Source of the DNA: a virus
Strand: one strand, 5' to 3'
DNA length: 64,000 nt
IMG/VR virus record: IMGVR_UViG_3300020603_000015
Span: 1 to 64,000 of that record
Under the pieces are notes generated by a model that was not told where the DNA came from, ran no database searches, and saw nothing but the letters and a program-made list of their open reading frames with translations. Both the position numbers and the translations under genes were made by a program. This document shows, piece after piece, positions 17,735 through 60,616 of the stretch (the first letter of the stretch is position 1; the number at the start of each line of letters is the position of its first letter).

Positions 17735-20700
17735 TTATGAAAAAACCTCAATATATTTTGTACCAGCCGTAAAAGCATTTGAACCGCCATTCGACACACT
17801 TGCCGCTATATAAATACGAATATATCCGGCTAATGTTCTACCACTACTACTTGTTGTAGCTATACCATTACAATTTGCAATAGACAAAAAGTTGCTAGTA
17901 TTACCCGCTCCATATACATACAATCTACCATTTGCATCGGGTACATCACCCACACCTATATTTGTATTAGTAACTTGAAATGTCCTAGTAGCAGCCGCAT
18001 ATATAGAAATTGGTAATGTTTGATTATAAAAATAAGCTTCAGTGGGCGCATTATTTAAGTAAGATTCTCCATTAGAATTTCTAAATGCTATATCATTACT
18101 TCCAAATGAGAAACTCCCAGGCGATGCTCCTCGTTTAACTGTTAAAGGATTAGTACTCGTTGATGTATCATTTACACCTAAATGACTATTAGCTGTGTCA
18201 TGAAATAAAAAGGTGCTATCTTTTAGAGTTGTAGAAGATGTGGAATAAATGACTCTATCAGTGTTTGTAAATGAACCACCACTTATACCACTAGTACCGG
18301 CTGGCGCAGCAAGACCACTTGTACCTGTCGTACCTGTTGAACCACTCGTAGCATTTGCAGTACTTGTACCACCTGTAGCAGTAGCACCATTTGTACCACT
18401 TGTACCACTGCTACCACTGGTAGAACTTACAGTACTTGTACCACCTGTAGCAGAAGCACCACTGGTACCACTTGTACCATTGCTACCACTTGTTGCGCTT
18501 GTACCGCTTGTTCTTGCACCAGTACCACTAACACCATTATTACCACTTGTACCACTGCTACCAGTTGTTGCGCTTGTACCGCTTGTTCTTGCACCAGTAC
18601 CGCTTGTACCATTATTACCACTTGTACCACTGCTACCAGTACTACCACTAGTAGAACTTACAGTACTTGTACCACCTGTAGCAGTAGCACCACTGGTACC
18701 GCTGCTACCAGTACTACCACTGGTAGAACTTACAGTACTTGTACCACCTGTAGCAGAAGCACCACTGGTACCACTTGTACCACTGCTACCACTTGTTGCG
18801 CTTGTACCGCTTGTTCTTGCACCAGTACCGCTTGTACCATTATTACCACTTGTACCACTGCTACCAGTACTACCACTAGTAGAACTTACAGTACTTGTAC
18901 CACCTGTAGCAGCAGCACCACTGGTACCGCTGCTACCAGTACTACCACTGGTAGAACTTACAGTACTTGTACCACCTGTAGCAGAAGCACCACTGGTACC
19001 ACTGGTACCACTGCTACCACTGCTACCACTTGTACCGCTTGTAAAACTTAAAGTACTTGTACCACCTGTAGCAGAAGCACCACTTGTACCACTGGTACCA
19101 CTGCTACCACTGGTAGAACTTACAGTACTTGTACCACCTGTAGCAGCAGCACCACTGGTACCGCTGCTACCAGCACTACCACTAGTAAAACTTACAGTAC
19201 TTGTACCACCTGTAGCAGAAGCACCACTGGTACCACTTGTACCACTGCTACCACTGCTACCACTTGTACCGCTGGTAAAACTTAAAGTACTTGTGCCACC
19301 TGTAGCAGAAGCACCACTGGTACCACTGCTACCACTGCTACCACTGCTACCACTTGTACCGCTGGTAAAACTTAAACTACTTGTACCACCTGTAGCAGAA
19401 GCACCACTGGTACCGCTGCTACCAGTACTACCACTGGTAAAACTTATAGTACTTATACCACCTGTAGCGGACGCACCACTGGTACCACTGGTACCACTGC
19501 TACCACTGCTACCACTTGTACCGCTGGTAAAACTTTCAGTACTTGTACCACCTGTAGCAGAAGCACCACTGGTACCGCTGCTACCACTTGTACCGCTGGT
19601 AAAACTTAAAGTACTTGTACCACTTGTTCCGCTTACACCACTGGTACCAGCAGTACCACCTGTACCACTTGTGCCACTTGATGATCCACTTAAACCACTG
19701 GTACCAACCAAACCACTGCTACCAGCAGTACCGCCTGTACCACTTGTACCACTGGTACCACTTGTACCACTTGTACCACTGGTATCACTTGTACCGCTTG
19801 TACCATTATTACCACTGGTACCACTTGTGCCACTGCTACCACTTGTAAATGCACCCGAACCACTTGTACCACTTGTTCCGCTTACACCACTGGTACCAGC
19901 AGTACCACCTGTACCACTTGTGCCACTTGATGATCCACTTAAACCACTGGTACCAACCAAACCACTGCTACCAGCAGTACCGCCTGTACCACTTGTACCA
20001 CTGGTACCACTTGTACCACTTGTACCACTTGTACCACTTGTTTGGCTTACACCACTGGTACCAGCAGTACCGCCTGTACCACTTGTACCACTTGTTGATC
20101 CACTTAAACCACTGGTACCAACCAAACCACTGCTTCCATTAGTTCCTCCAAATCCACTTGTACCACTTGTACCACTTATACCACTTGAAAAACAACTGTT
20201 ACCACTTGTACCATTTGTACCATTTTGACCACTGCTACCACTGGTACCAGTGGTACCGCTTGTTCTTGCACCAGTACCACTAGTGCCATTTGTACCATTT
20301 GCACCACTGCTACCACTGCTACCACTTGTACCACTTGAAAAACAACTGCTACCACTTGTACCATTCAAACCACTTGTACCATTTGTACCACTTGTACCAC
20401 TTGAAAAACAACTGCTACCACTTGTACCACTTGTACCATTTGCACCACTGGTACCACTGGTACCACTGGTACCGGTAGTACCGCTTGTTCCTGAACCACC
20501 ACTAGTGCCATTTGTAGCAGATAATCCGCTGCTACCACTCGTACCATTCAAACCACTTGTACCATTTGTACCACTCGTACCACTTGAAAAACAACTGATA
20601 CCACTTGTACCACTCGTTCCGCTTTTACCACTTGTACCACTTGTACCACTGCTACCACTGCTACCACTAGTGCCACTTGTACCACTCGTTCCGCTTGTAC

Positions 20701-21124
20701 CACCCGTACCATTTGTACCACTCGTTCCGCTTGTACCACTCGTTCCGCTTGTACCAGATGTACCACTTATACCACTAGTACCATTTGTACCAAATATACC
20801 ACTTGTACCGGAAGTACCGGTTACACCACTAGTGCCTGACGCGGGTGCTATAAAAACTTCTTTTGTGATATTATCTATGGCTAAAACATGAGTTAACGGA
20901 AATGGACCAGCGCCTGTACCTGACGGAAGATTAGTATATAGATTATTGGAAACATATATTTTTGAAGCAGTTATTTCGTTTAGGTTTTTTGAACCTGTTA
21001 AAAGGCCTTGTGCGTTTGTAATAATTAATAAATTGCTACCAGAAACCACCCTTTCTGTAAAATTATTTCCAGAGGAGTCACGTTGAGTAAAAAGAGATGC
21101 AAATCTATCGATACTACTACCCAT
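17735..21124 (-). CDS. Collagen-like Gly-Thr-Ser repeat tail fibre protein
   Basis: A 1129-residue protein. The first about 95 residues are ordinary sequence with a probable virion attachment role. Residues about 95-950 are an almost uninterrupted Gly-X-Y array in which X and Y are mostly Thr, Ser, Ala or Asn, as in collagen-like triple helices of phage and microbial fibres. The C-terminal 170 residues (from about GSFTNTDRVIYS) are a conventional strand-rich domain ending in KYIEVFS and may be the receptor-binding tip. Four SCFSSG units break the Gly-X-Y pattern and bring cysteines into the shaft. Proline is nearly absent, so triple-helix stability may need glycosylation. It lies downstream of the neck genes, with a glycosyltransferase downstream. 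On the plus strand it creates a spurious Pro-Leu-Val frame. Confidence 0.85.
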   Translation of the reverse strand: MGSSIDRFASLFTQRDSSGNNFTERVVSGSNLLIITNAQGLLTGSKNLNEITASKIYVSNNLYTNLPSGTGAGPFPLTHVLAIDNITKEVFIAPASGTSGVTGTSGTSGIFGTNGTSGISGTSGTSGTSGTSGTSGTNGTGGTSGTSGTSGTSGSSGSSGTSGTSGKSGTSGTSGISCFSSGTSGTNGTSGLNGTSGSSGLSATNGTSGGSGTSGTTGTSGTSGTSGANGTSGTSGSSCFSSGTSGTNGTSGLNGTSGSSCFSSGTSGSSGSSGANGTNGTSGTGARTSGTTGTSGSSGQNGTNGTSGNSCFSSGISGTSGTSGFGGTNGSSGLVGTSGLSGSTSGTSGTGGTAGTSGVSQTSGTSGTSGTSGTSGTSGTGGTAGSSGLVGTSGLSGSSSGTSGTGGTAGTSGVSGTSGTSGSGAFTSGSSGTSGTSGNNGTSGTSDTSGTSGTSGTSGTSGTGGTAGSSGLVGTSGLSGSSSGTSGTGGTAGTSGVSGTSGTSTLSFTSGTSGSSGTSGASATGGTSTESFTSGTSGSSGSSGTSGTSGASATGGISTISFTSGSTGSSGTSGASATGGTSSLSFTSGTSGSSGSSGSSGTSGASATGGTSTLSFTSGTSGSSGSSGTSGTSGASATGGTSTVSFTSGSAGSSGTSGAAATGGTSTVSSTSGSSGTSGTSGASATGGTSTLSFTSGTSGSSGSSGTSGTSGASATGGTSTVSSTSGSTGSSGTSGAAATGGTSTVSSTSGSTGSSGTSGNNGTSGTGARTSGTSATSGSSGTSGTSGASATGGTSTVSSTSGSTGSSGTSGATATGGTSTVSSTSGSTGSSGTSGNNGTSGTGARTSGTSATTGSSGTSGNNGVSGTGARTSGTSATSGSNGTSGTSGASATGGTSTVSSTSGSSGTSGTNGATATGGTSTANATSGSTGTTGTSGLAAPAGTSGISGGSFTNTDRVIYSTSSTTLKDSTFLFHDTANSHLGVNDTSTSTNPLTVKRGASPGSFSFGSNDIAFRNSNGESYLNNAPTEAYFYNQTLPISIYAAATRTFQVTNTNIGVGDVPDANGRLYVYGAGNTSNFLSIANCNGIATTSSSGRTLAGYIRIYIAASVSNGGSNAFTAGTKYIEVFS
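18275..20840 (-). repeat. Collagen-like tandem repeat region with two nested longer periods
   Basis: The 9-base repeat coding Gly-X-Y extends over about 2.5 kb. Within it, blocks containing ASATGG and then SFTSG or SSTSG recur about a dozen times around 18350-19620. A second block type (containing TAGSSGLVGTSGLSG and relatives) recurs about three times around 19620-20130. DNA of this kind expands and contracts easily, so exact copy number may differ among relatives or assemblies. Confidence 0.85.
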
Positions 21125-49336: not shown

Positions 49337-52300
49337 TTATTCACCGAAACTAGCACCAGTTGGTAGAATGTTGAAGTCAAGGATAATGAATTCAGCAGTT
49401 CTAGCTGGTTGGATGAAGATTTGACCATAAAGGATATTTCTATCAATTAGGTCAGGTGTATTGTTTTGTTCATCCATCTTAACTTGATAAGCATAGATAC
49501 CATTACGTTGTTGTACAGATTCTAAATATGGATTTACGATACTCAAGAATCTATTACGTGTAGCAGCTACGTTTTGTTCGAATACCAAGTATTTGCTTGA
49601 ACTTGCGATAAACTTCTTCAAGTTAATCAACAAGCGACGAACATTGATACGATCCAAAGCGCTTGGAGCAATTTGTAGAGTCTTTTGACCCCACACACAG
49701 ATACCTTGACCTGGAAAGGCTGCGATTGGATTTACACGACCTTCGTACAATTCATCACGTTCACTATGTGTAGTTCTATCCAGAACTTGTACAGCGATTG
49801 GAATACCACCACGATTTAGACCAGCAGGAGCATACCATTCAGCAGATGCATTATCGTTAGCAGCATAAACTGCTGGTAATACCACTGAAGGAGGTACACT
49901 AATAATCTTGTTGGTATTAGTATCTAGAATCTTTACCCATGGATAATATGTAGCAACATAGTTACTATCAATTGTAGCGACTGAGTTGACGGCGGCATCA
50001 ATCAATCCGACAGTTTGGTTACTTGCTGGGAACACGACGTTATCCATGATATAGAAACAATCACCACGAGCTTCGCACATATCGATTGTAATTTCAGTTA
50101 CGTAGCTGTGTTGTTCACGGAAGATGCCAGGCAATACAATCAAGTTGATATCAAATTCATCCGCATTACCTAGAGCAGCGATACATTGTTTGTATGCAAT
50201 ACTACCTGGGCTATTGATATTTGTACAATCTAGACCTTGTGTATTACCAGCGGTAATATCACTTCCTAGAGCGATTGGAATTGATGGCCATTTACCATCA
50301 AATCCACCTTGGAATCCCACTAGGAACTTACGTAGTTTTACGTATGTAGATTCATTAACTGGATCATAGTTACTTGGAATACTACCACTCAGGGATGGAT
50401 CTAGTAGTGAACCAGTACCATTTGCATAGAACTTGGCGTTTTGAGTACCTCGAGTCTTGTCTTCCAAGTCAAAGTCAATATTTATACCATTTACGCTACT
50501 TGGCAATGGTTTGAAATATTCGTCGGTATCGTTATATACACCAACATTTGCTGAAGAAGTTGGATACAAAGATACCAATTCATCGTCGGCTTGAGGTACG
50601 TCGTTGAATACTGTACCACAACTATATTTACCAGGCGCTAGAGACCAGATACTTGCTTTGCTATATCTGACCGGAGGAATAATATCTGCTAAAGTACCAG
50701 CGACTGGAGTAGAATATGATTCAAATCCATATGGTACAGATACTTCTGGATATAAACCATCAGCCATTTCAATTCTGATGAATTGACTCAAGTTAACATA
50801 TGTACCAAATTCGATGATTTTACCAGCGAATGTGATGTATGCGTAACGATCACCAATTCTACGTGCAATGAAGTTTGCACTATCAGGATTTAAATTCAAG
50901 TTTTGATAAATTTCCAAATACTTTGGACGTTTATCTGTGTCACTATAAGCACGAACTGCAAGTGAGAATGAACCCCAATCACTACCTGGGACTGTACCAG
51001 CCAACTTAACGTTGCTGATTTCAATCTTGTATTTCTTGTTACTCAACGTACCATCACTTAGTGTATGTATCTTGAACAATTGATACTTGGTTGGTACTGC
51101 GGATTCATTTGCACTACCTCTAAATGGAGCAATCTTTTGTGAGTAGATCCATGGAGTATATGCATTAGTGATACTAAATTGACTATCACCCGCAGTAAGA
51201 TTTGTGCTGTATTGGTCAACAAACTTTAATGGTTCACCAATTGCAAATCCAGCTTCTGGAGCTGTATTTGCTAGCAACTTCCAACCACCGCCTTCAGCAC
51301 TTGGACGAGTCTTTTCAGCGACAAATCTTTGAATACTATCTTGGAACAACATGTAGTTGTAAGCAGCTTCTACTTTTTGACCAGCAACTTGTTTTGCTGG
51401 GTTACCAGCGGTTGGATCAAATCCAAATACATTTCCAACGAAATTATTATCACTCTCATTTAGGGTGAAGTCATAATAACCATATGTTCCTGCACTTGTG
51501 GTACCATCATCATTTGCGAAGCTATACTTTAAGATTAGTTGATATGCATTTTCATTTGGATTAATCAATCCCTTATATGGGAATACTGAACTTGTTAGTT
51601 GACTTAGTGTTGATGTATCAAAACCATATACTTCATATCTATTGTTGAATTGTGAAGAAGCATTTTGAGTATTATTCAATACTGCCAATACCATCTTGCT
51701 TCTTGCAGATGAATTTGGGTTACATGGATCACCACCAGATGTGTCTTGATTTGTGAATGTACCATCAAAATCACCATAAGCACCAGCTACTAGACCCAAG
51801 AATTGTAGACTTGATCCACAGGTGCTTGCACCTCTAATAGACTTGAAACTTGCACTATGTAGTGATAATGTACCATTTACATCAAATGTGGTTGTATCAT
51901 AATCCAAACTTACCTTCGCACTTGAAGTCATAGATGCGGACAAATAAGCTACCGTTTCAGAGCTTTCATTAAATGCCGTAGCAATCTTAGTCTCGGGTGT
52001 TACGTTTTGGTTTTGTACACTAGAGGTCAAATAATAGTATCCAGCAAAAATTCCTGCTGTTGGCGTTGTACCGGTGATCTTTCTTAGCAAATATGTATTT
52101 GCGCCCGATGAATTGGTGGTGCTAACAGTACCCAGTGTTACTTGTTTACCCGCGTATAGTACTGATCCACTCAAAAATCCACCCGTACCATTATAATTAC
52201 TATAATAAACCGCTGTTGCTGCTTTTGGTGCGAACTTACCACTTACAATACCATTTACTCTTAAACGTGATGTATCATGTCTGTATGTAAATACTGCGTC

Positions 52301-53272
52301 TGACTTTGAACTGCTAATACTAGCATTGCTAAAGTCTAAAGCGCAATCAGCTGGATATCTACCGAAGACTAATCCAAATGTAACATTATTACTATTCAAT
52401 GTATAAGATTGAGTTAAATAATTATAATATGCACTAGGTAAAAACGAAGATGAGAATGCAATTGAATATTTGGTGGCACCTATAGAAGCAGATATATTTC
52501 CTGCTATTTTGTATTTTTGATAATCAAAGTTTGCTAGGACATATTCAGAAGATCCACCTGATGGTTGAACTTTGTATCCTTGTTGCACTACAGATGCGCT
52601 GAAGATATAAGAATTGTTCGTTGTAGTAATTTTAAACAATTTACCTTTACTACCAGACGATGCTAATGAGGCTGACAACGTATTACTATTTGCGATAGTT
52701 GGCCAACCAATTGATACTAGGAATTGTTGAATTTCCAAATTAGTAGCGCGGGTTACACTTAATGATGATGATATTCTACCAGTAGTACCAGCTAATCCTT
52801 TAATACCTGTTGTACTTGACTTAAGTTCTGATGAACTATATTCTAGAATTAAATTTGAAGAATAATTATCACTATCCAAAAACATGAATGATGCGGTAGT
52901 CAATGCACCCAAATCACTATTTCTGTTCCAATAACCTGGCTGAGCATAGATGACCAATGGGTTTTTTTGCCAGTATCCGGTCAAACCACCAACACGAACA
53001 ACAGTTACCACACCTTGTTGTAACAAGTATTCTTTAGCGGTATATGGACCATAATATACCCCATCTGCTAATCCAAATCGTTGTTCAAGCTCCGCAACCT
53101 CTGTAATTCTGGCTGGGAAAAATGCGGGTCCGTCTGAAAACGGTGCTACTATAGCACCTCCGATATTGGCTACACCTTGGGCTAGCCCCGATAGATCATT
53201 TTCTCTAGTAAATACACCAGGACTTACTATATTTTGTACTGGTGAAAATCTCCCACCTTCTGTTATTGGCAT
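49337..53272 (-). CDS. gp18: Tail sheath protein (T4 gp18-like), unusually long
   Basis: A 1311-residue protein, about twice the length of T4 gp18 (659). The N-terminal 100 residues (ENDLSGLAQGVANIGGAIVAP) and the C-terminal 150 residues (RRLLINLKKFIASSSKYLVFEQN with TRNRFLSIVNPYLESVQQRNG) are typical of contractile sheaths and make the core fold. Between them is a long Ser/Thr/Asn/Gly-rich insertion (about residues 130-900), presumably surface domains. A recognisable ribosome binding site (GAAAGGA) and a terminator after the stop support strong expression. Confidence 0.9.
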   Translation of the reverse strand: MPITEGGRFSPVQNIVSPGVFTRENDLSGLAQGVANIGGAIVAPFSDGPAFFPARITEVAELEQRFGLADGVYYGPYTAKEYLLQQGVVTVVRVGGLTGYWQKNPLVIYAQPGYWNRNSDLGALTTASFMFLDSDNYSSNLILEYSSSELKSSTTGIKGLAGTTGRISSSLSVTRATNLEIQQFLVSIGWPTIANSNTLSASLASSGSKGKLFKITTTNNSYIFSASVVQQGYKVQPSGGSSEYVLANFDYQKYKIAGNISASIGATKYSIAFSSSFLPSAYYNYLTQSYTLNSNNVTFGLVFGRYPADCALDFSNASISSSKSDAVFTYRHDTSRLRVNGIVSGKFAPKAATAVYYSNYNGTGGFLSGSVLYAGKQVTLGTVSTTNSSGANTYLLRKITGTTPTAGIFAGYYYLTSSVQNQNVTPETKIATAFNESSETVAYLSASMTSSAKVSLDYDTTTFDVNGTLSLHSASFKSIRGASTCGSSLQFLGLVAGAYGDFDGTFTNQDTSGGDPCNPNSSARSKMVLAVLNNTQNASSQFNNRYEVYGFDTSTLSQLTSSVFPYKGLINPNENAYQLILKYSFANDDGTTSAGTYGYYDFTLNESDNNFVGNVFGFDPTAGNPAKQVAGQKVEAAYNYMLFQDSIQRFVAEKTRPSAEGGGWKLLANTAPEAGFAIGEPLKFVDQYSTNLTAGDSQFSITNAYTPWIYSQKIAPFRGSANESAVPTKYQLFKIHTLSDGTLSNKKYKIEISNVKLAGTVPGSDWGSFSLAVRAYSDTDKRPKYLEIYQNLNLNPDSANFIARRIGDRYAYITFAGKIIEFGTYVNLSQFIRIEMADGLYPEVSVPYGFESYSTPVAGTLADIIPPVRYSKASIWSLAPGKYSCGTVFNDVPQADDELVSLYPTSSANVGVYNDTDEYFKPLPSSVNGINIDFDLEDKTRGTQNAKFYANGTGSLLDPSLSGSIPSNYDPVNESTYVKLRKFLVGFQGGFDGKWPSIPIALGSDITAGNTQGLDCTNINSPGSIAYKQCIAALGNADEFDINLIVLPGIFREQHSYVTEITIDMCEARGDCFYIMDNVVFPASNQTVGLIDAAVNSVATIDSNYVATYYPWVKILDTNTNKIISVPPSVVLPAVYAANDNASAEWYAPAGLNRGGIPIAVQVLDRTTHSERDELYEGRVNPIAAFPGQGICVWGQKTLQIAPSALDRINVRRLLINLKKFIASSSKYLVFEQNVAATRNRFLSIVNPYLESVQQRNGIYAYQVKMDEQNNTPDLIDRNILYGQIFIQPARTAEFIILDFNILPTGASFGE

Positions 53273-53348: not shown

Positions 53349-53876
53349 TTAAATTTTACCAACTAATTTTTTTATTATATCAATTGACGGAATTTTCTCC
53401 AACTCATTTTTTAGAAATGAGTATTTGAGGTTATATTTTTGTCTGGAGATTTCATAATTATCATAATTTTCATTAAAAAAAGTTAAATTTATACCATATT
53501 TAAAACGTGTGTTATTTACTTTATTAAATAAATCAATATACTTAGTCCACACGTTTGCTTCATCAATATTATCGGTCTTCAAGTTAAACATAAAATTGAA
53601 ATCTGATATTTTAAAATTATACTCATCTATACATTCTACACCAGTATCCATATCAAACGCATATAATTTTATAGAATCAAATTCTAAAGGAATGAATTCT
53701 GGTTTTGTATACCAATATCCAAATTTTATATTTTCTGTGGAATAGTATTGATTTGTACTACTTTTCATTACATAGTGTAATGCATGGTTGATATATTTTT
53801 GGGGTACATTATAGAAGTTTAACCTCTGTACGGAAGTGATATAATCTATTTTAAAATAACCATTTTTAGAATTCAT
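53349..53876 (-). CDS. Hypothetical protein at the end of the glycan-modification operon
   Basis: A 175-residue protein, overlapping the carbamoyltransferase gene by 4 bases (ATGA). It is rich in Tyr, Phe, Asn and Lys (ISDFNFMFNLKTDN), and may be a small strand-rich domain. No motif is recognised. Its coupling suggests a role with the carbamoyltransferase or a glycan-binding role. A 76-base gap to the sheath start follows. Confidence 0.6.
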   Translation of the reverse strand: MNSKNGYFKIDYITSVQRLNFYNVPQKYINHALHYVMKSSTNQYYSTENIKFGYWYTKPEFIPLEFDSIKLYAFDMDTGVECIDEYNFKISDFNFMFNLKTDNIDEANVWTKYIDLFNKVNNTRFKYGINLTFFNENYDNYEISRQKYNLKYSFLKNELEKIPSIDIIKKLVGKI

Positions 53877-55513
53877 ACTAATTTATAAATTTTATTGTTA
53901 ATAATTAAAAGATCTACAGTACCTTCAGCCAAATGTTTTAGTGCGTGATTTGGTGAATTGATAATAGGCTCTCCATGACCATTAAAACTTGTATTCATTA
54001 AAACGGGTATTTTAGATCGATGATTATAAGCGGAAAGTATCTTATGAAATAGAGAATGTCTATATTTATTTACAACTTGTGGTCTAGCTGTATTATCATA
54101 AAAATTTATAACCGCCGGTATTTTATTGGCCCATTGTTCTTTTACGGTATAACATAAAGTCATAAACTCTGCAGTTCTTTTAGATTTATATACATAGCAT
54201 ACATCCTCAATGTATTCTTCCATGACTATAGGTGCGAATGGCATAATATCGTCACGTTTTAATCTTTCATTTATATATGCATGAGTTTCTTTTCTGGTTG
54301 GCTCTACAACAATAGAACGTGAACCTAAAGCTCTTGGACCATATTCTGTAGCACCATCAAATATACCAATAACTTTACCATCAACCAGATAGTCTCCAAT
54401 TTTATTAAAATCTAAATCTTCGGATGCTAGTGTCTTTCCAAAATTGGATTGGAAATTATCAATATCAATTTGTGTGTCTTGATATGATGTTTTATTACCA
54501 AGAAATACATTATCAATTCTTCTATTTGTAAACACACCCAATTCTACAGCATATGCAATTGCTGATCCAAGAGATAATCCTTCATCATTCATAGCAGGAT
54601 ATACCCACATCTCTTTAAATGGTAATAATTCGTTTATCTTTTGGTTGATTTTAACATTTGCAAAAATACCACCTGCTAAACATAGATTATCAAATGGTCC
54701 ATACTCATCGTAATATTTCTTTATAAAATTAAGAATAGTAATTTCGCTGATATATTGTAGATTGTATGCTAAATCTCTTTTTAGATTCAAAGCATCTTCT
54801 TTTGATAGTGTTTTCAACAATGTGGTGTACTTTTCCTGAATCATACACGATGCTTTTAACATATCGTTTTGCACAAAGAAATTCAATGTATCAAATATCT
54901 TTTGATTGAATTTTCCCTGCGCAGCAAGACCCATAATCTTACCCTCGTCTTTAATAGGAGTAAGACCAAATATCAAACACATCAAAAACCAAAGATTAGC
55001 AACGCTTCCATTTTTAACACGTTCACCAATTTCAATTAGTTTACCATTTTTAACAATATAACATGCAGTTTGACTATCGTTTTTTGCCTTCCACGGATTA
55101 TAACGATCATAATTTTCTTTATTCAATATTGTCCAATCATCATCGCCACAATCGCCACCATCATATGCAACGATTAATGTATTTTCGTTAAAGCCGGATG
55201 TATAATAAGCACCGCATGCGTGTGCATATTCGTGTCCAATAGTTCTAAGTTCTCTGTTATTTACAATATCACGCAAAAATTTATGTTCTGTAGCTATAGG
55301 TTTAGCACAAGCAAATTTTACGTTTGGATCGTTAATATCAAAATTAAAGTTTTTTTGTAAAGCATCTAGACTATTGATTGGGAATATACAACCTGCGTGT
55401 GCTGATTTAACTCTTGTGAATCTTTCTTCGGAATAACAAGCTAATATTTGATTATTCTCAATTAAAGCAACGCCAACATCATGTGGTCCTATGTAGCTAC
55501 CTACTATTTTCAT
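53873..55513 (-). CDS. NodU/CmcH-type O-carbamoyltransferase
   Basis: A 546-residue protein. The N-terminal domain shows SEERFTRVKSAHAGCIFP (the SEERF...K.H element), IGHEYAHACGAYYTSGF with histidines for metal binding, and VAYDGGDCGDD. The C-terminal YrdC-like part shows GIFDGATEYGPRALGSRSI and FAPIVMEEY, then LMNTSFNGHGEPIINSP. These are all characteristic of NodU/CmcH/TobZ carbamoyltransferases that transfer a carbamoyl group from carbamoyl phosphate to a sugar or hydroxyl. The gene overlaps its neighbour 714-residue transferase by 4 bases. The substrate may be a sugar on a virion protein or lipopolysaccharide. Confidence 0.87.
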   Translation of the reverse strand: MKIVGSYIGPHDVGVALIENNQILACYSEERFTRVKSAHAGCIFPINSLDALQKNFNFDINDPNVKFACAKPIATEHKFLRDIVNNRELRTIGHEYAHACGAYYTSGFNENTLIVAYDGGDCGDDDWTILNKENYDRYNPWKAKNDSQTACYIVKNGKLIEIGERVKNGSVANLWFLMCLIFGLTPIKDEGKIMGLAAQGKFNQKIFDTLNFFVQNDMLKASCMIQEKYTTLLKTLSKEDALNLKRDLAYNLQYISEITILNFIKKYYDEYGPFDNLCLAGGIFANVKINQKINELLPFKEMWVYPAMNDEGLSLGSAIAYAVELGVFTNRRIDNVFLGNKTSYQDTQIDIDNFQSNFGKTLASEDLDFNKIGDYLVDGKVIGIFDGATEYGPRALGSRSIVVEPTRKETHAYINERLKRDDIMPFAPIVMEEYIEDVCYVYKSKRTAEFMTLCYTVKEQWANKIPAVINFYDNTARPQVVNKYRHSLFHKILSAYNHRSKIPVLMNTSFNGHGEPIINSPNHALKHLAEGTVDLLIINNKIYKLV

Positions 55514-57654
55514 AAATTATTATCTTTAATTAGACGATCAATTGTTTCTATAACCATTTGTGGGGTGATAGATTTTGTACATTCAAATATTTCCTTTTTC
55601 TCGGACTTCGGACACCACATCCAATTACCCCTATCAAAATAATTATCATTCCAACAACCAGTACATACATTTTTATTTTGCACACGATATGGAGTTTCAA
55701 ACTCTGTATAATCATATGAAAATCCACTAATCAATATGGTTGGCTTTTCTAATGCCCATGACAACCACGATAATCCCGATGGTAAACCTATAAAAAATGA
55801 GCTGTGATATATTTGATTCATACGATCACTCAATGGATGATCACCTGTTAAATCAATAGCATTTTGAGGTATAACATTCATATTGTCGCCATTACCCCAA
55901 CTATAATTTTTATCTATACAAACAACATCAAATCCTTTAGTCTTCAAGTATTCGATAACAATTTCCCAACCTCCTTTGTGATTCCAATACTTACATTGTG
56001 ATGTACTTTGTGTAGCAATAGTCACGGTAGGTTTTGTAAATGTCGAAGGCTTTAATGGAAAATCTAACAAAGGTCTTTCTGGAACATATGACAAACCTAG
56101 ATAATCGGAAACTATCTTTTGTAGAGGCTCTTTTCTTATATCAGTCTTACATCTATTGGTATTGATGGTTTTATCATCCACATACCAGCCTGGTTTATAT
56201 GTAGCAAACATTTCTGGACCGGATTCATCCATATTCAAAAATTTGATATTCTTATATTTCTTTTCGAAAAATGGACGTAGATTTGGAATCTTTACGTACA
56301 AATTACACTTATGTTTTACTCTGAATTGTTCAGTTATAGGCATCCAACACAACTGATCACCCAACGCTGGTGTATCAAATTGAATCAAAACATTTCTATC
56401 TGTCAAATCTAAATCGTAATCTAGTAAAGTCTTGCCTGTTAAATTGCTTTTTACTGAAATATTAAATGGAATATAATATGCAAAGTCACATCTTCCCCAC
56501 CAACCATCTTTGAGAGTTGTGTTATATAGAACTTGATCGGTTACCCTGTTTTTAAATACCACATCAAACGATTCATCTTTATTAACACAATTTGTTATTT
56601 CTATACACGCATTATCATTGAATGAATAGTTTATATTAGCTGTAATGGTTGCTTGATTAGTATTCTTATCCAATGTGTCGTATATGTTGACAAATTTATT
56701 TGCAAATAACTTATCAATATATTCATCGTATAGTTCTATTAACTGATCTGATCTCTTATCATAAGAATTATTTTTTGCAGCTTTTAATGCCTCTGTATGA
56801 TAGCGTTCATAATTGCTAATAACTTTTCCAATAGCATCTTTGATTTGTTTGGTATTTCTATCAACCACAATCATACCTTCGTATTTTTTGTCTTCAAATG
56901 TTCCTACTACAGGAAGACCACAAGCCATAGCTTCCAACAAAGTTAGATTTGGATGACCGGCTTCCAGTTCTGATGCGTGTATAAAAACATCATGGTTGTT
57001 ATATAACTCTATCAATCCATTTTCATCCAGATCAAATACTTTTGTCAGCTTTTCATAATTGTTTAATGACGACTCCAATGTTTCAAAAAATTTCCTGTTG
57101 TTACTTGGACCGGCGATTGTGATAGGTAGGTTTAATTCTTTAGCCGCCTGTATTGCAAACTTAAAACCTTTTCTATCGGCTGATTGATTGTTCGCATAAC
57201 CATTATTAGCTACACATAATAGTTTATAGTTTTCTCTATTATAGTTTTTGTATTTAAAAGTATCTGTATTAACAGCATGCGAAAAATATCTTAATTTTTT
57301 ACTACCAAAGTAGTCAACTAGATATTTTGCAGGACATGTTGATATAATACTATTTTCTATAGCCTTTAAATTCTCTTTAAATACTGGAGAATCTTTACCA
57401 TAAAGATAAGCATGATGATCGTGTAAAGTAAAGATGTATGGAATACCACGTTTATGACATTCATTTGCTAAATTAGCGACATGTACGTGAACAATAGTAT
57501 TGTCATTATACTTTATATCGTCCAAAAATTTGATCTCACATTCCAATCCTTTTTTGTTTAATTGAAGATAATAATCCCAAATTATTTTTTCTATAGCACC
57601 CCAACCATTAGGAGGAATAGGCAATAAACCCAAATGTACTTGTATTACTTTCAT
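55510..57654 (-). CDS. Bifunctional GT4 glycosyltransferase / BAHT-type protein O-heptosyltransferase
   Basis: A 714-residue fusion. Residues 1-310 are a GT4-type GT-B enzyme (PPNGWGAIEKIIWDYY near the start; EAGHPNLTLLEAMACGLPVVG near 230-250). From about residue 330 to the end the sequence follows bacterial autotransporter O-heptosyltransferases: NVLIQFDTPALGDQLCWMP, GLPSGLSWLSWALEKPTILISGF, and a C-terminal iron-finger-like motif NVCTGCWN...WMWCP...FECT with four cysteines. BAHT enzymes attach sugars to Ser/Thr of repeat proteins. Being fused to a GT4 may let one protein start and extend a glycan. It is followed by the carbamoyltransferase gene. Confidence 0.83.
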   Translation of the reverse strand: MKVIQVHLGLLPIPPNGWGAIEKIIWDYYLQLNKKGLECEIKFLDDIKYNDNTIVHVHVANLANECHKRGIPYIFTLHDHHAYLYGKDSPVFKENLKAIENSIISTCPAKYLVDYFGSKKLRYFSHAVNTDTFKYKNYNRENYKLLCVANNGYANNQSADRKGFKFAIQAAKELNLPITIAGPSNNRKFFETLESSLNNYEKLTKVFDLDENGLIELYNNHDVFIHASELEAGHPNLTLLEAMACGLPVVGTFEDKKYEGMIVVDRNTKQIKDAIGKVISNYERYHTEALKAAKNNSYDKRSDQLIELYDEYIDKLFANKFVNIYDTLDKNTNQATITANINYSFNDNACIEITNCVNKDESFDVVFKNRVTDQVLYNTTLKDGWWGRCDFAYYIPFNISVKSNLTGKTLLDYDLDLTDRNVLIQFDTPALGDQLCWMPITEQFRVKHKCNLYVKIPNLRPFFEKKYKNIKFLNMDESGPEMFATYKPGWYVDDKTINTNRCKTDIRKEPLQKIVSDYLGLSYVPERPLLDFPLKPSTFTKPTVTIATQSTSQCKYWNHKGGWEIVIEYLKTKGFDVVCIDKNYSWGNGDNMNVIPQNAIDLTGDHPLSDRMNQIYHSSFFIGLPSGLSWLSWALEKPTILISGFSYDYTEFETPYRVQNKNVCTGCWNDNYFDRGNWMWCPKSEKKEIFECTKSITPQMVIETIDRLIKDNNL

Positions 57655-57656
57655 GA

Positions 57657-59648
57657 TTATTTAGCTGTGAAATGTCCGTTATTCTGCAAATCCTCTAGTT
57701 TAGAAAACACCTGTACTACTTCTTTTACCATGTTTTTGTTTTCAGAGTCGTACAAAGCGTTTACTACTTTATACACGTTGTTTGGTTCAAAATCAACCTC
57801 AATATGCCACCAACCTTTGGTTTGTATTTCATTTTGTGATTCTCGTATCAACACATCATTCTTGTAAACAGATATTCTATTGTATTTTTTATCTATTTTG
57901 TTATTGAAACTACTCAAACAAACAAACTTAGAAGTATTAGTCATTGGCAAAACTGACAAATATTCACACATAGAAAACATATTGATTTCACTATTACTAA
58001 AGAATGACTCTTCGTTGTTGTTAGTATCTATGTATAGATCTTTTTTATGATCCAACACTCTGTTATAATAGAATTGTTCTAAACCATTTGATATATTCTT
58101 CTCTTTAACAAACATCTCATATGATATAGGTGTGAAATACTCAAAATGATCCAGATAAAAATCCGTGTTAATAGCATGAAATACCGTTTTGATTGTATCT
58201 CCTTCAAGTGCTTTATCATAGAAAAAGAAACCTTTCTTGGTCTTCAATAAATTCTTAATAAAATCTAATTTATTAAAATCTTTTTCGTTTACAACCACAT
58301 CGTAGTTAAAAGCAAATACATTCTTGTATCCCAATTTATTTGCGAGTGATATACCATTGTAATAATTTAATGCGACACCCAACCCATGATATATGTTCGC
58401 ACCACATGATGGTAAGTGTACTCTTATATCGTGATATTGATTAACCAACGACCAATTCGCATAAAAATTGTGTATTATAGACGGATTGTTTTTATCATAT
58501 ATACAATAATCCACCAACGATTGTAACTCTTGACTGACTGGATAATGTGATGTTAATATTACTTTATACCCTGCCTTCTGAATCTGTTGAATGGCTTTTA
58601 TTGTAGTATCTTCTACTATCTTATAATTTGGATGTGTAGAAATAACCGCAATAAATTCTTTATCATCAACTCGTTCACTTGTTTTAACGCCTATCAATTT
58701 ATTACGAATCAAATCTACATTATTATTAAAACTAGATTCATCAAGATAAGAAATATTATCATAACATGAATATCTATTCAAATAGACTGGTAGATTATAA
58801 AACAAACTTGGTATATTATATGAAATAGCTTCTTTAATTACAATTGGCGCGGTTTCTTTATCGTTTGCATGACCACGACTTGTAAACAAAAATAAATCCA
58901 TACAACTATAAAAATTATGTACGTCTTTTCGTTCACCCCAAACCTTTACATTTTTAGGTAAATCATTTAATAATGGTTCCCAATATGATCTAAAGTTATC
59001 GGCCATATTACCAATACAATGAAACTGAACATTTTCATTTTCCATCGCACGTGCATATTCGATAAACTCTTTTTGATTTTTTCTTGGTGTGAATAGACCT
59101 ACATGCATAACATGTTTTTTACTAGGATCTAAACCCAATTCTTTTAATCCATCATTACGATTCTTACGAGTTCTTACTTCAACTGGATATTCAATAACAT
59201 CCGATTTAACAGGTAATTTTTTAACATTTTGTTTCTGGAAGTTACTTACAAACAAAAATTGATCAGGCAAAACTCTCTTATTATCTGAATTAAAACTACT
59301 ATCGTGTGATGTTTCTACTATAAAATAGTTTCGATCTTTATCATAAATTCTGGATGATATAGATAGATCCATAAAATACTCAGGCATTTCTTCAAAGTGA
59401 ATAATATTCGGTTTTATTTTACTTATCAAATTTATGATATCTTCCTTGTTATCATATAAAGTATAAAACTTGTTTTTACATATATTTTTAATCTGGTCTC
59501 GTTGTACGATAAACTTTCCACCTGTTACGTCCGCATATTCAATACAATATACGTCGTATATATCAATCAGACACTTTATCTTCTTTAAAAGAAATTGAGG
59601 AAGACCACCGGTGGACAAATGTGGAGCGATAAATAACAATTTTTTCAT
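57657..59648 (-). CDS. Two-domain glycosyltransferase (GT4 plus second glycan domain)
   Basis: A 663-residue protein from the ATG at 59648. N-terminal 330 residues are GT4-like: LLFIAPHLSTGGLPQFLLKK, HVGLFTPRKNQKEFIEY near 185 and HANDKETAPIVIKEAISYNIPSLFY. The second half holds EFIAVISTHPNYKIVEDTTIKAIQQI with a later FNYDVVVN element resembling a GT-A-like glycosyltransferase of the region VLTSHYPVSQEL onwards. It lies between the FkbM methyltransferase and the 714-residue transferase, in the same direction. It probably adds two consecutive sugars to a virion or surface glycan. Confidence 0.75.
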   Translation of the reverse strand: MKKLLFIAPHLSTGGLPQFLLKKIKCLIDIYDVYCIEYADVTGGKFIVQRDQIKNICKNKFYTLYDNKEDIINLISKIKPNIIHFEEMPEYFMDLSISSRIYDKDRNYFIVETSHDSSFNSDNKRVLPDQFLFVSNFQKQNVKKLPVKSDVIEYPVEVRTRKNRNDGLKELGLDPSKKHVMHVGLFTPRKNQKEFIEYARAMENENVQFHCIGNMADNFRSYWEPLLNDLPKNVKVWGERKDVHNFYSCMDLFLFTSRGHANDKETAPIVIKEAISYNIPSLFYNLPVYLNRYSCYDNISYLDESSFNNNVDLIRNKLIGVKTSERVDDKEFIAVISTHPNYKIVEDTTIKAIQQIQKAGYKVILTSHYPVSQELQSLVDYCIYDKNNPSIIHNFYANWSLVNQYHDIRVHLPSCGANIYHGLGVALNYYNGISLANKLGYKNVFAFNYDVVVNEKDFNKLDFIKNLLKTKKGFFFYDKALEGDTIKTVFHAINTDFYLDHFEYFTPISYEMFVKEKNISNGLEQFYYNRVLDHKKDLYIDTNNNEESFFSNSEINMFSMCEYLSVLPMTNTSKFVCLSSFNNKIDKKYNRISVYKNDVLIRESQNEIQTKGWWHIEVDFEPNNVYKVVNALYDSENKNMVKEVVQVFSKLEDLQNNGHFTAK

Positions 59649-59650
59649 AT

Positions 59651-60616
59651 TCACTTAATGAAGAATATAGTACCCATATTCTGAGACAATACATAATCTT
59701 TGTCGGTCAAAAAATACATTTTATAATTTAAATTGGTCAATCTAGATATTAACATGTTGAGTCTTTCGTCTTTATTATGAAATTCTAAAAAGATAGTATG
59801 ACAATTTTTAATAAAATCATCGGACGTTGATTCAAAAAAGTCATACTCAGCGCCTTCAATATCCACTTTAAGATATGTTGGGTACTGGAGATTATTAACT
59901 TTAGCAAACACTTCAAGATGAATGCCGTCAACAGAACATAAATTTTTATCTTTATTTATGATAGAACATGCAACTGATCCTTGACTTAATCCACCCTCTA
60001 GATTACCAAAATTTAGTGATTCAAATGTTTTATAAATGGCTTTTTTATATGTAGATACATTTTTACCATATACATCACAATTATACTTTAGATAATCATA
60101 TATCAATGGGTTTGGTTCGAATGCATATATGTTTTTAGTATCATAGTTTGAACACATTAAAGAAAAAGCGCCTATGTTAGCACCCAAATCGTAGACTACA
60201 TCACCATCTTTAACATTACAGAGTTTTTTAAAAGATTCATCGTAGAAAAATGTTTGATATGGCGGATACGTTATATCAATATCATTAGATTTCAACTTTA
60301 TATTTAATCCAGTATTTTTAAATCTATAGTATTTGGTACAAATTGGTTTAGAGTTTTCATTAAAAAACTCCATGATGATACCGGGATGACATTCCAACTT
60401 TGTTATATTTATGGGCCAACTATAACTCCATACATTATGATTGGGGCCCATTTGAACATGAAGCAAGTTGTTAGTTAAATTTGTATCAATACTTTTAAGT
60501 ATGACAAAAAAATTAACAGATGTATCAAAATTTTTATGAAAATGACACTCTCCATTTTGGTTAATTGTGAAACTTAAGTTTACATCACCAATAATGAGAG
60601 AATCTGATATTTCCAT
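59651..60616 (-). CDS. FkbM-family SAM methyltransferase
   Basis: A 321-residue protein. The C-terminal 190 residues are a Rossmann methyltransferase: GDVVYDLGANIGAFSLMCS (SAM-binding glycine loop), IYAFEPNPLIYDYL (acidic residue after strand 2), YLKVDIEGAEYDF (Asp-Ile-Glu-Gly-Ala-Glu, family signature) and HTIFLEFHN. This is the FkbM type, which often methylates sugars. The N-terminal 125 residues are strand-rich and similar in style to accessory regions of the two glycosyltransferases. The stop overlaps the short gap before the 663-residue transferase gene; the Mre11-Rad50 fusion lies upstream. Confidence 0.83.
   Translation of the reverse strand: MEISDSLIIGDVNLSFTINQNGECHFHKNFDTSVNFFVILKSIDTNLTNNLLHVQMGPNHNVWSYSWPINITKLECHPGIIMEFFNENSKPICTKYYRFKNTGLNIKLKSNDIDITYPPYQTFFYDESFKKLCNVKDGDVVYDLGANIGAFSLMCSNYDTKNIYAFEPNPLIYDYLKYNCDVYGKNVSTYKKAIYKTFESLNFGNLEGGLSQGSVACSIINKDKNLCSVDGIHLEVFAKVNNLQYPTYLKVDIEGAEYDFFESTSDDFIKNCHTIFLEFHNKDERLNMLISRLTNLNYKMYFLTDKDYVLSQNMGTIFFIK

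Follow-up and report, generated by a model that had tools for sequence, protein, structure and literature searches.

A phage-encoded GT4–BAHT fusion protein in a putative virion glycosylation operon

Introduction

Why would a phage carry, next to its late structural genes, a member of an enzyme family named for bacterial adhesins? The question is raised by a 714-residue protein encoded at 55510–57654 on the minus strand of IMG/VR virus record IMGVR_UViG_3300020603_000015, in which a GT4 glycosyltransferase is fused to a domain of the BAHT family, whose studied members glycosylate serine residues of proteins. We analysed the first 64,000 nucleotides of this 66 kb record (the window, in whose numbering coordinates are given). 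Terminase, portal and contractile tail sheath genes lie in the same strand block of the record, revealing its phage nature, and the source is a large, freshwater-type phage. Glycosyltransferase clusters are common in environmental phages and are usually read as modifiers of lipopolysaccharide (LPS) or DNA.

A GT4 enzyme is fused to a TibC-like domain

The fusion gene is intact, running from ATG to stop without a frameshift. A first-pass annotation, made from the sequence alone, had taken the C-terminal half for a BAHT-type protein and had named a profile search and a structure prediction beforehand as checks; both bear it out. The family model TIGR04414 (‘autotransporter strand-loop-strand O-heptosyltransferase’) matches residues 338–707 with 328 bits (E=7e-98), far above the curated cut-off of 200 bits, and scores 330 bits in the gene's own record. 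The best solved relative is TibC of enterotoxigenic Escherichia coli (PDB 4rap_A; phmmer E=1e-71), to which the BAHT half is 38% identical. An AlphaFold2 model of the whole protein has a predicted local distance difference test score (pLDDT) of 91, and its residues 338–713 superimpose on TibC (4rb4) with a Z score of 45.1 and a root mean square deviation of 1.8 Å over 366 residues, the N-terminal β-barrel included. On profile, 4rap and overlay evidence, the BAHT domain (residues 338–714; 55513–56643, minus strand) is predicted to comprise this β-barrel, a catalytic domain and an iron finger. Profile and model thus agree in placing the C-terminal half in the BAHT/TibC family, and protein O-heptosyltransferase activity is predicted from that membership.

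The N-terminal half (residues 1–318; 56701–57654, minus strand), described at first reading as a separate GT-B enzyme, is indeed assigned to GT4-type GT-B enzymes by profile and modelled fold. Pfam PF00534 (Glycos_transf_1) matches it with 52 bits (7.9e-14; cut-off 26.4), and a structure search returned GT4 enzymes with Z scores of up to 28.6 over 306 aligned residues. PHROGs matches were confined to this half; the BAHT family was not among them. A short, low-confidence linker (residues 328–335) joins the GT4 half to the BAHT half.

The fusion gene occurs at 100% identity in near-identical loci from two other metagenomes (L001 and L003), which excludes an assembly artefact, and at 64–80% identity in further assemblies. 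Ratios of nonsynonymous to synonymous substitution rates (dN/dS), taken from comparisons in which dS was unsaturated, range from 0.03 to 0.22 in the GT4 and BAHT halves alike, indicating that both halves are kept by purifying selection.

Catalytic and iron-finger residues are retained

Mutation tests on TibC revealed that D110, K230, R286 and W305, as well as the iron-binding cysteines C339, C342, C358 and C370, are required (PMC4358343). All have equivalents in the phage protein. The presumed catalytic base is D433 (TibC D110; codon at 56356–56358, minus strand), and the predicted donor-binding residues T551, K555 (K230), R611 (R286) and W630 (W305) are all present, as is P625 (P300). The motifs picked out at first reading (LIQF...GD...W, SGLSWLSWAL and ISGF) are real elements of the family: LGDQLCW contains the D110 equivalent and SGLSWLSWAL contains that of W305. 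The four-cysteine motif noted there as iron-finger-like, C664-x2-C667...C681...C692 (55579–55665, minus strand), aligns with the four TibC cysteines and is a predicted iron finger. To look for loss of this motif in relatives, we aligned 33 viral homologues with 7 bacterial ones; the four cysteines, D433, K555 and W630 are invariant throughout the 40 sequences.

The thumb tip is different. F265 and V266 of TibC are replaced by D590 and N591, and only F368 is retained (F690). A dodecamer contact of the TibC type is therefore not predicted. In the viral clade, the hydrophobic residues by which the TibC dodecamer is held at this site are unconserved. The same is true of several aligned bacterial BAHT members, and membership in the aligned set is therefore not defined by the tip.

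A widespread virus branch of the BAHT family

A scan with a broad alignment identified BAHT relatives in at least 506 viral stretches in IMG/VR. We compared 107 viral loci, or 47 after redundancy removal. Among the matches listed, the GT4–BAHT fusion recurs down to 33% identity. Other arrangements are a BAHT domain with an FkbM-annotated N-terminal extension (Microcystis phage Mel-JY01), a stand-alone BAHT protein (636 kb phage LR756504), and GT4 and BAHT as separate genes (L029). The fusion was not found in bacterial homologues: a search of bacterial and archaeal genome contigs gave 18 matches, of which only that in L029 also covers the GT4 half, while all others begin at or after residue 270. 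L029 (JABDKL010000107.1) is binned as a Winogradskyella metagenome-assembled genome (MAG) and is a phage contig, carrying collagen-like, glycosyltransferase, FkbM, BAHT and tail sheath genes.

In a quick tree, a supported group of ten unites TibC with most of the bacterial proteins, and the diversity outside it is mainly viral; because sampling was driven by a viral query, the tree is not to be read as showing origin. By sequence relationship, the viral relatives constitute a widespread virus branch of the family.

Several loci hold more than one copy. A second BAHT gene of about 270–290 residues, shortened at its N terminus and without the barrel, directly follows the main one in several phages (L071:5180-6025, L072:5362-6177, L073:5169-5993, L124:6273-7136, L127:8064-8915, and records G035 and G036), and a Schwartzia (Selenomonadaceae) MAG has three BAHT genes in tandem (L040:7716-11536).

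The fusion gene lies in a putative glycosylation operon beside virion genes

The fusion gene is the third of five minus-strand genes linked by 4-bp overlaps or a 2-bp gap. The first encodes an FkbM-family methyltransferase (59651–60616; TIGR01444 5.6e-21; PF05050) and overlaps the next by 4 bp. The second, 2 bp upstream of the fusion gene, encodes a 665-residue two-domain glycosyltransferase (57657–59654; PF13692/PF00534; AlphaFold2 pLDDT 88) with an N-terminal GT4 domain (GT4 fold at residues 1–324), a second α/β domain for which the structure search gave no fold assignment, and a C-terminal β-sandwich. We considered this β-sandwich and the N terminus of the FkbM protein as copies of the TibC barrel and rejected the idea, as profile search and hhalign came back empty (best probability 4%). 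Downstream, a NodU/Nol-type O-carbamoyltransferase gene (53873–55513; PF16861 2e-50; PF02543 2e-30; phrog_1601 3e-89) overlaps the fusion gene by 4 bp. It is followed by a 175-residue open reading frame (53349–53876) that co-occurs with the carbamoyltransferase and was left without a functional assignment by Pfam, TIGR and PHROGs searches and synteny. The tail sheath gene comes next.

Several relatives lack the carbamoyltransferase and 175-residue genes, and there about 80 bp separate the fusion gene from the start of the sheath gene; one locus (L018) lacks the FkbM gene. Carbamoyltransferases of the NodU type and FkbM methyltransferases are sugar-decorating enzymes, consistent with a role in glycan capping. 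Elsewhere in the window, a single 1062-residue open reading frame (60618–63806) combines SbcD-like phosphoesterase and SbcC/Rad50-like parts, and is a fused SbcDC.

Proposed reaction and donor sugar

We propose, giving the whole scheme about even credence, that the fusion protein works as a bifunctional glycosyltransferase within a glycosylation operon of the phage and acts on a virion protein. In the host cytoplasm, the BAHT domain would attach a sugar to the hydroxyl groups of serines in a freshly synthesized structural protein of the phage, with D433 acting as the base and K555, T551, R611 and W630 binding the donor. By analogy with TibC, the four-cysteine iron finger would stabilize the enzyme and contact the acceptor. 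The fused GT4 domain might then add a second sugar to the BAHT product, and the two-domain glycosyltransferase, the FkbM methyltransferase and the carbamoyltransferase could extend and cap the glycan. Serine-rich (GSS/GTS)n collagen-like fibres would be the first acceptors and the tail sheath the next. Such a coat of sugars would serve to protect the virion, to camouflage it or to tune its adsorption.

The donor is predicted to be ADP-D-glycero-D-manno-heptose, as P625, the equivalent of TibC P300, is kept. The usual source of ADP-heptose is a Gram-negative host. Enzymes for making it are encoded by two huge BAHT phages: LR756504 has GmhA (430182–430640; 251 bits, above the cut-off) 27 kb from its BAHT gene, and LR756501 has an HldE-type kinase domain (209213–210175; 306 bits, somewhat under the curated cut-off of 345). 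Two further hits were not counted as evidence: one to rfaE domain I in G019 (weak, 55 bits) and one to rfaE domain II in LR756501 (partial, E=0.002). A search for gmhA in 22 more records, of which probably all or most are fragments, found none.

Collagen-like fibres are the leading candidate acceptor

The sequence data point to a collagen-like tail fibre as the most likely acceptor, with the tail sheath second. The window encodes such a fibre of 1129 residues (17735–21124, minus strand; PF01391 4.6e-40; phrog_1806/5073; composition), with about 840 residues of (G-S/T-S/T)n repeats and 55% serine plus threonine in that core. A 659-residue open reading frame antisense to this gene (18249–20228, plus strand) is most likely a repeat artefact.

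We located repeat arrays with a DNA pattern for (GSS)n containing enough fixed bases, using the reversed pattern, which never matched, as a control. Arrays were present in 17 of 21 phage records with BAHT and in none of nine BAHT-less phages (Fisher 5e-5), a comparison weakened by the nine controls being unmatched by lineage; they include Flavobacterium phage immuto, the nearest BAHT-less isolate by terminase, and two huge phages. BAHT genes lie 17 bp (L099) and 95 bp (L079) upstream of a collagen-like gene, and a small collagen-like (SSGTSG)n protein is encoded near BAHT at two gammaproteobacterial loci. When long contigs were chosen for arrays alone, 11 of 21 (some of them near-duplicates) carried BAHT.

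Further observations count against the proposed scheme. The frequency of BAHT among these array-chosen contigs did not differ significantly from the 4 of 15 in contigs chosen by terminase (p=0.18), and within the latter, which are short fragments, arrays were found in 0 of 4 with BAHT and 3 of 11 without, giving no association. LR756504 has BAHT and gmhA, yet no arrays. The strand-loop-strand target repeat of autotransporters, TIGR04415, is absent from the window's own record and 14 related ones, most of them fragments, so an autotransporter partner was not found. As to the donor, the ADP-heptose genes gmhA and rfaE domain II are absent from the 66 kb record, itself a fragment, and the host would therefore have to supply the sugar. 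The arginine that contacts the adenine, kept in the window protein, is absent in 19 of 33 aligned viral members, which could thus use another nucleotide sugar. Finally, the 484 kb phage LR756508 also has the large insertion of the long sheath form, despite showing no BAHT match.

This last point also counts against the sheath as the acceptor, an alternative suggested by the bacterial pattern in which a BAHT gene frequently precedes the gene for its substrate (PMC4358343). The sheath protein (49337–53272, minus strand; PF04984 1.6e-15; PF17482; phrog_23 1.4e-67; synteny) has 1311 residues with a long insertion, and the recognizable sheath domain occupies only its last quarter to third. It is the directly downstream structural gene, and hence the candidate favoured by the bacterial adjacency rule; it is likewise the next virion gene in the relatives without the carbamoyltransferase and in L029 (111 bp). 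A sheath gene lies within 6 kb downstream of BAHT in 18 of the 47 non-redundant viral loci; elsewhere many have terminase or collagen-like neighbours. In the other 29, however, no sheath was detected within that distance (some contigs end early), and in Mel-JY01 it is about 24 kb away. We regard the sheath as a rather unlikely acceptor, second to collagen-like fibres.

In Anaerovibrio lipolyticus (L039:6046-11035), about 1.6 kb separates a BAHT gene within a sugar cluster from a gene resembling that of flagellin, hinting at flagellin as a BAHT acceptor there.

Alternative roles of the operon

The operon could instead alter the host surface, with the enzyme glycosylating host LPS or a surface protein and thereby blocking superinfection. 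Related environmental phage clusters have been interpreted as modifiers of the host O-chain, and comparable pelagimyophage clusters of glycosyltransferases, found in host-recognition clusters, are read in this way in the passages concerned (PMC7029224). Pfam PF01075 (GT9) also matches the phage protein (26.9 bits, cut-off 22; 3.6e-6), which reflects distant kinship of the BAHT catalytic domain to GT9 LPS heptosyltransferases. However, the model for LPS heptosyltransferase I, TIGR02193, reaches only 17.4 bits, far under its curated cut-off of 185.3, against 328 bits for a protein-modifying family with β-barrel and iron finger, and the gene sits among late virion genes rather than early host-takeover genes. 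A host-surface role thus seems improbable to us.

Glycosylation of hypermodified phage DNA, as in T4-like phages, is the least probable role. In its favour, the phage is T4-like, GT4 domains include folds like the T4 α-glucosyltransferase (Z 20 for the neighbouring glycosyltransferase), and 7 of 14 related records have a gene of the thymidylate synthase family, to which hydroxymethylases can belong. Against it, the other seven records lack that gene, including the Mel-JY01 genome (190 kb, deposited as complete), protein serine is what TibC-type enzymes modify, and the operon carries carbamoyl- and methyltransferases too.

Returning to virion protein glycosylation, BAHT genes occur in hundreds of phage contigs and the studied members modify serine, so there is a testable lead that such clusters build protein glycans, probably on virions. 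This suggests that protein glycosylation is carried out by many phages, with their own virion proteins as the most likely targets. More broadly, and only tentatively, the protein O-heptosyltransferases of T4-like and huge environmental phages may form a large branch that is centred on viruses and exceeds the sampled bacterial, adhesin-modifying enzymes in diversity. They would coat the phages' own (Gly-Ser/Thr-Ser/Thr)n collagen-like virion fibres with glycans that are built on heptose and bear methyl and carbamoyl groups, and certain phages would supply ADP-heptose enzymes themselves. If true, this would matter for the recognition, stability and adsorption of phages. It would also widen to phages a family named for bacterial adhesins, with a phage branch that may have an acceptor other than a β-helix.

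Comparison with known systems

Pelagimyophage clusters resemble the present locus in belonging to T4-like environmental phages, in placing glycosyltransferases near tail genes and in rfaE; they differ in being read as O-chain modification, and BAHT is unmentioned in the passages concerned (PMC7029224). In mycobacteriophages, phage-encoded glycosyltransferases have been linked to virion-protein glycans (Freeman et al. 2023, summarised in PMC12619734); the shared feature is the phage-encoded glycosyltransferases, a likeness drawn from that summary alone. Among open-licence papers, we found no description of a phage BAHT protein or GT4–BAHT fusion. The closest systems are the BAHT enzymes TibC and AAH (4rap/4rb4). 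With them the phage protein shares the domain order of β-barrel, catalytic domain and iron finger, the four cysteines, the proline equivalent to P300 and every catalytic or donor residue that was tested by mutation. It differs from them in its N-terminal GT4 fusion, in being virus-borne and in the D/N thumb tip, and the phages searched lacked the autotransporter repeat. The fold and chemistry are already known from TibC and AAH; the phage GT4–BAHT fusion would offer glycoprotein work a new type of bifunctional enzyme.

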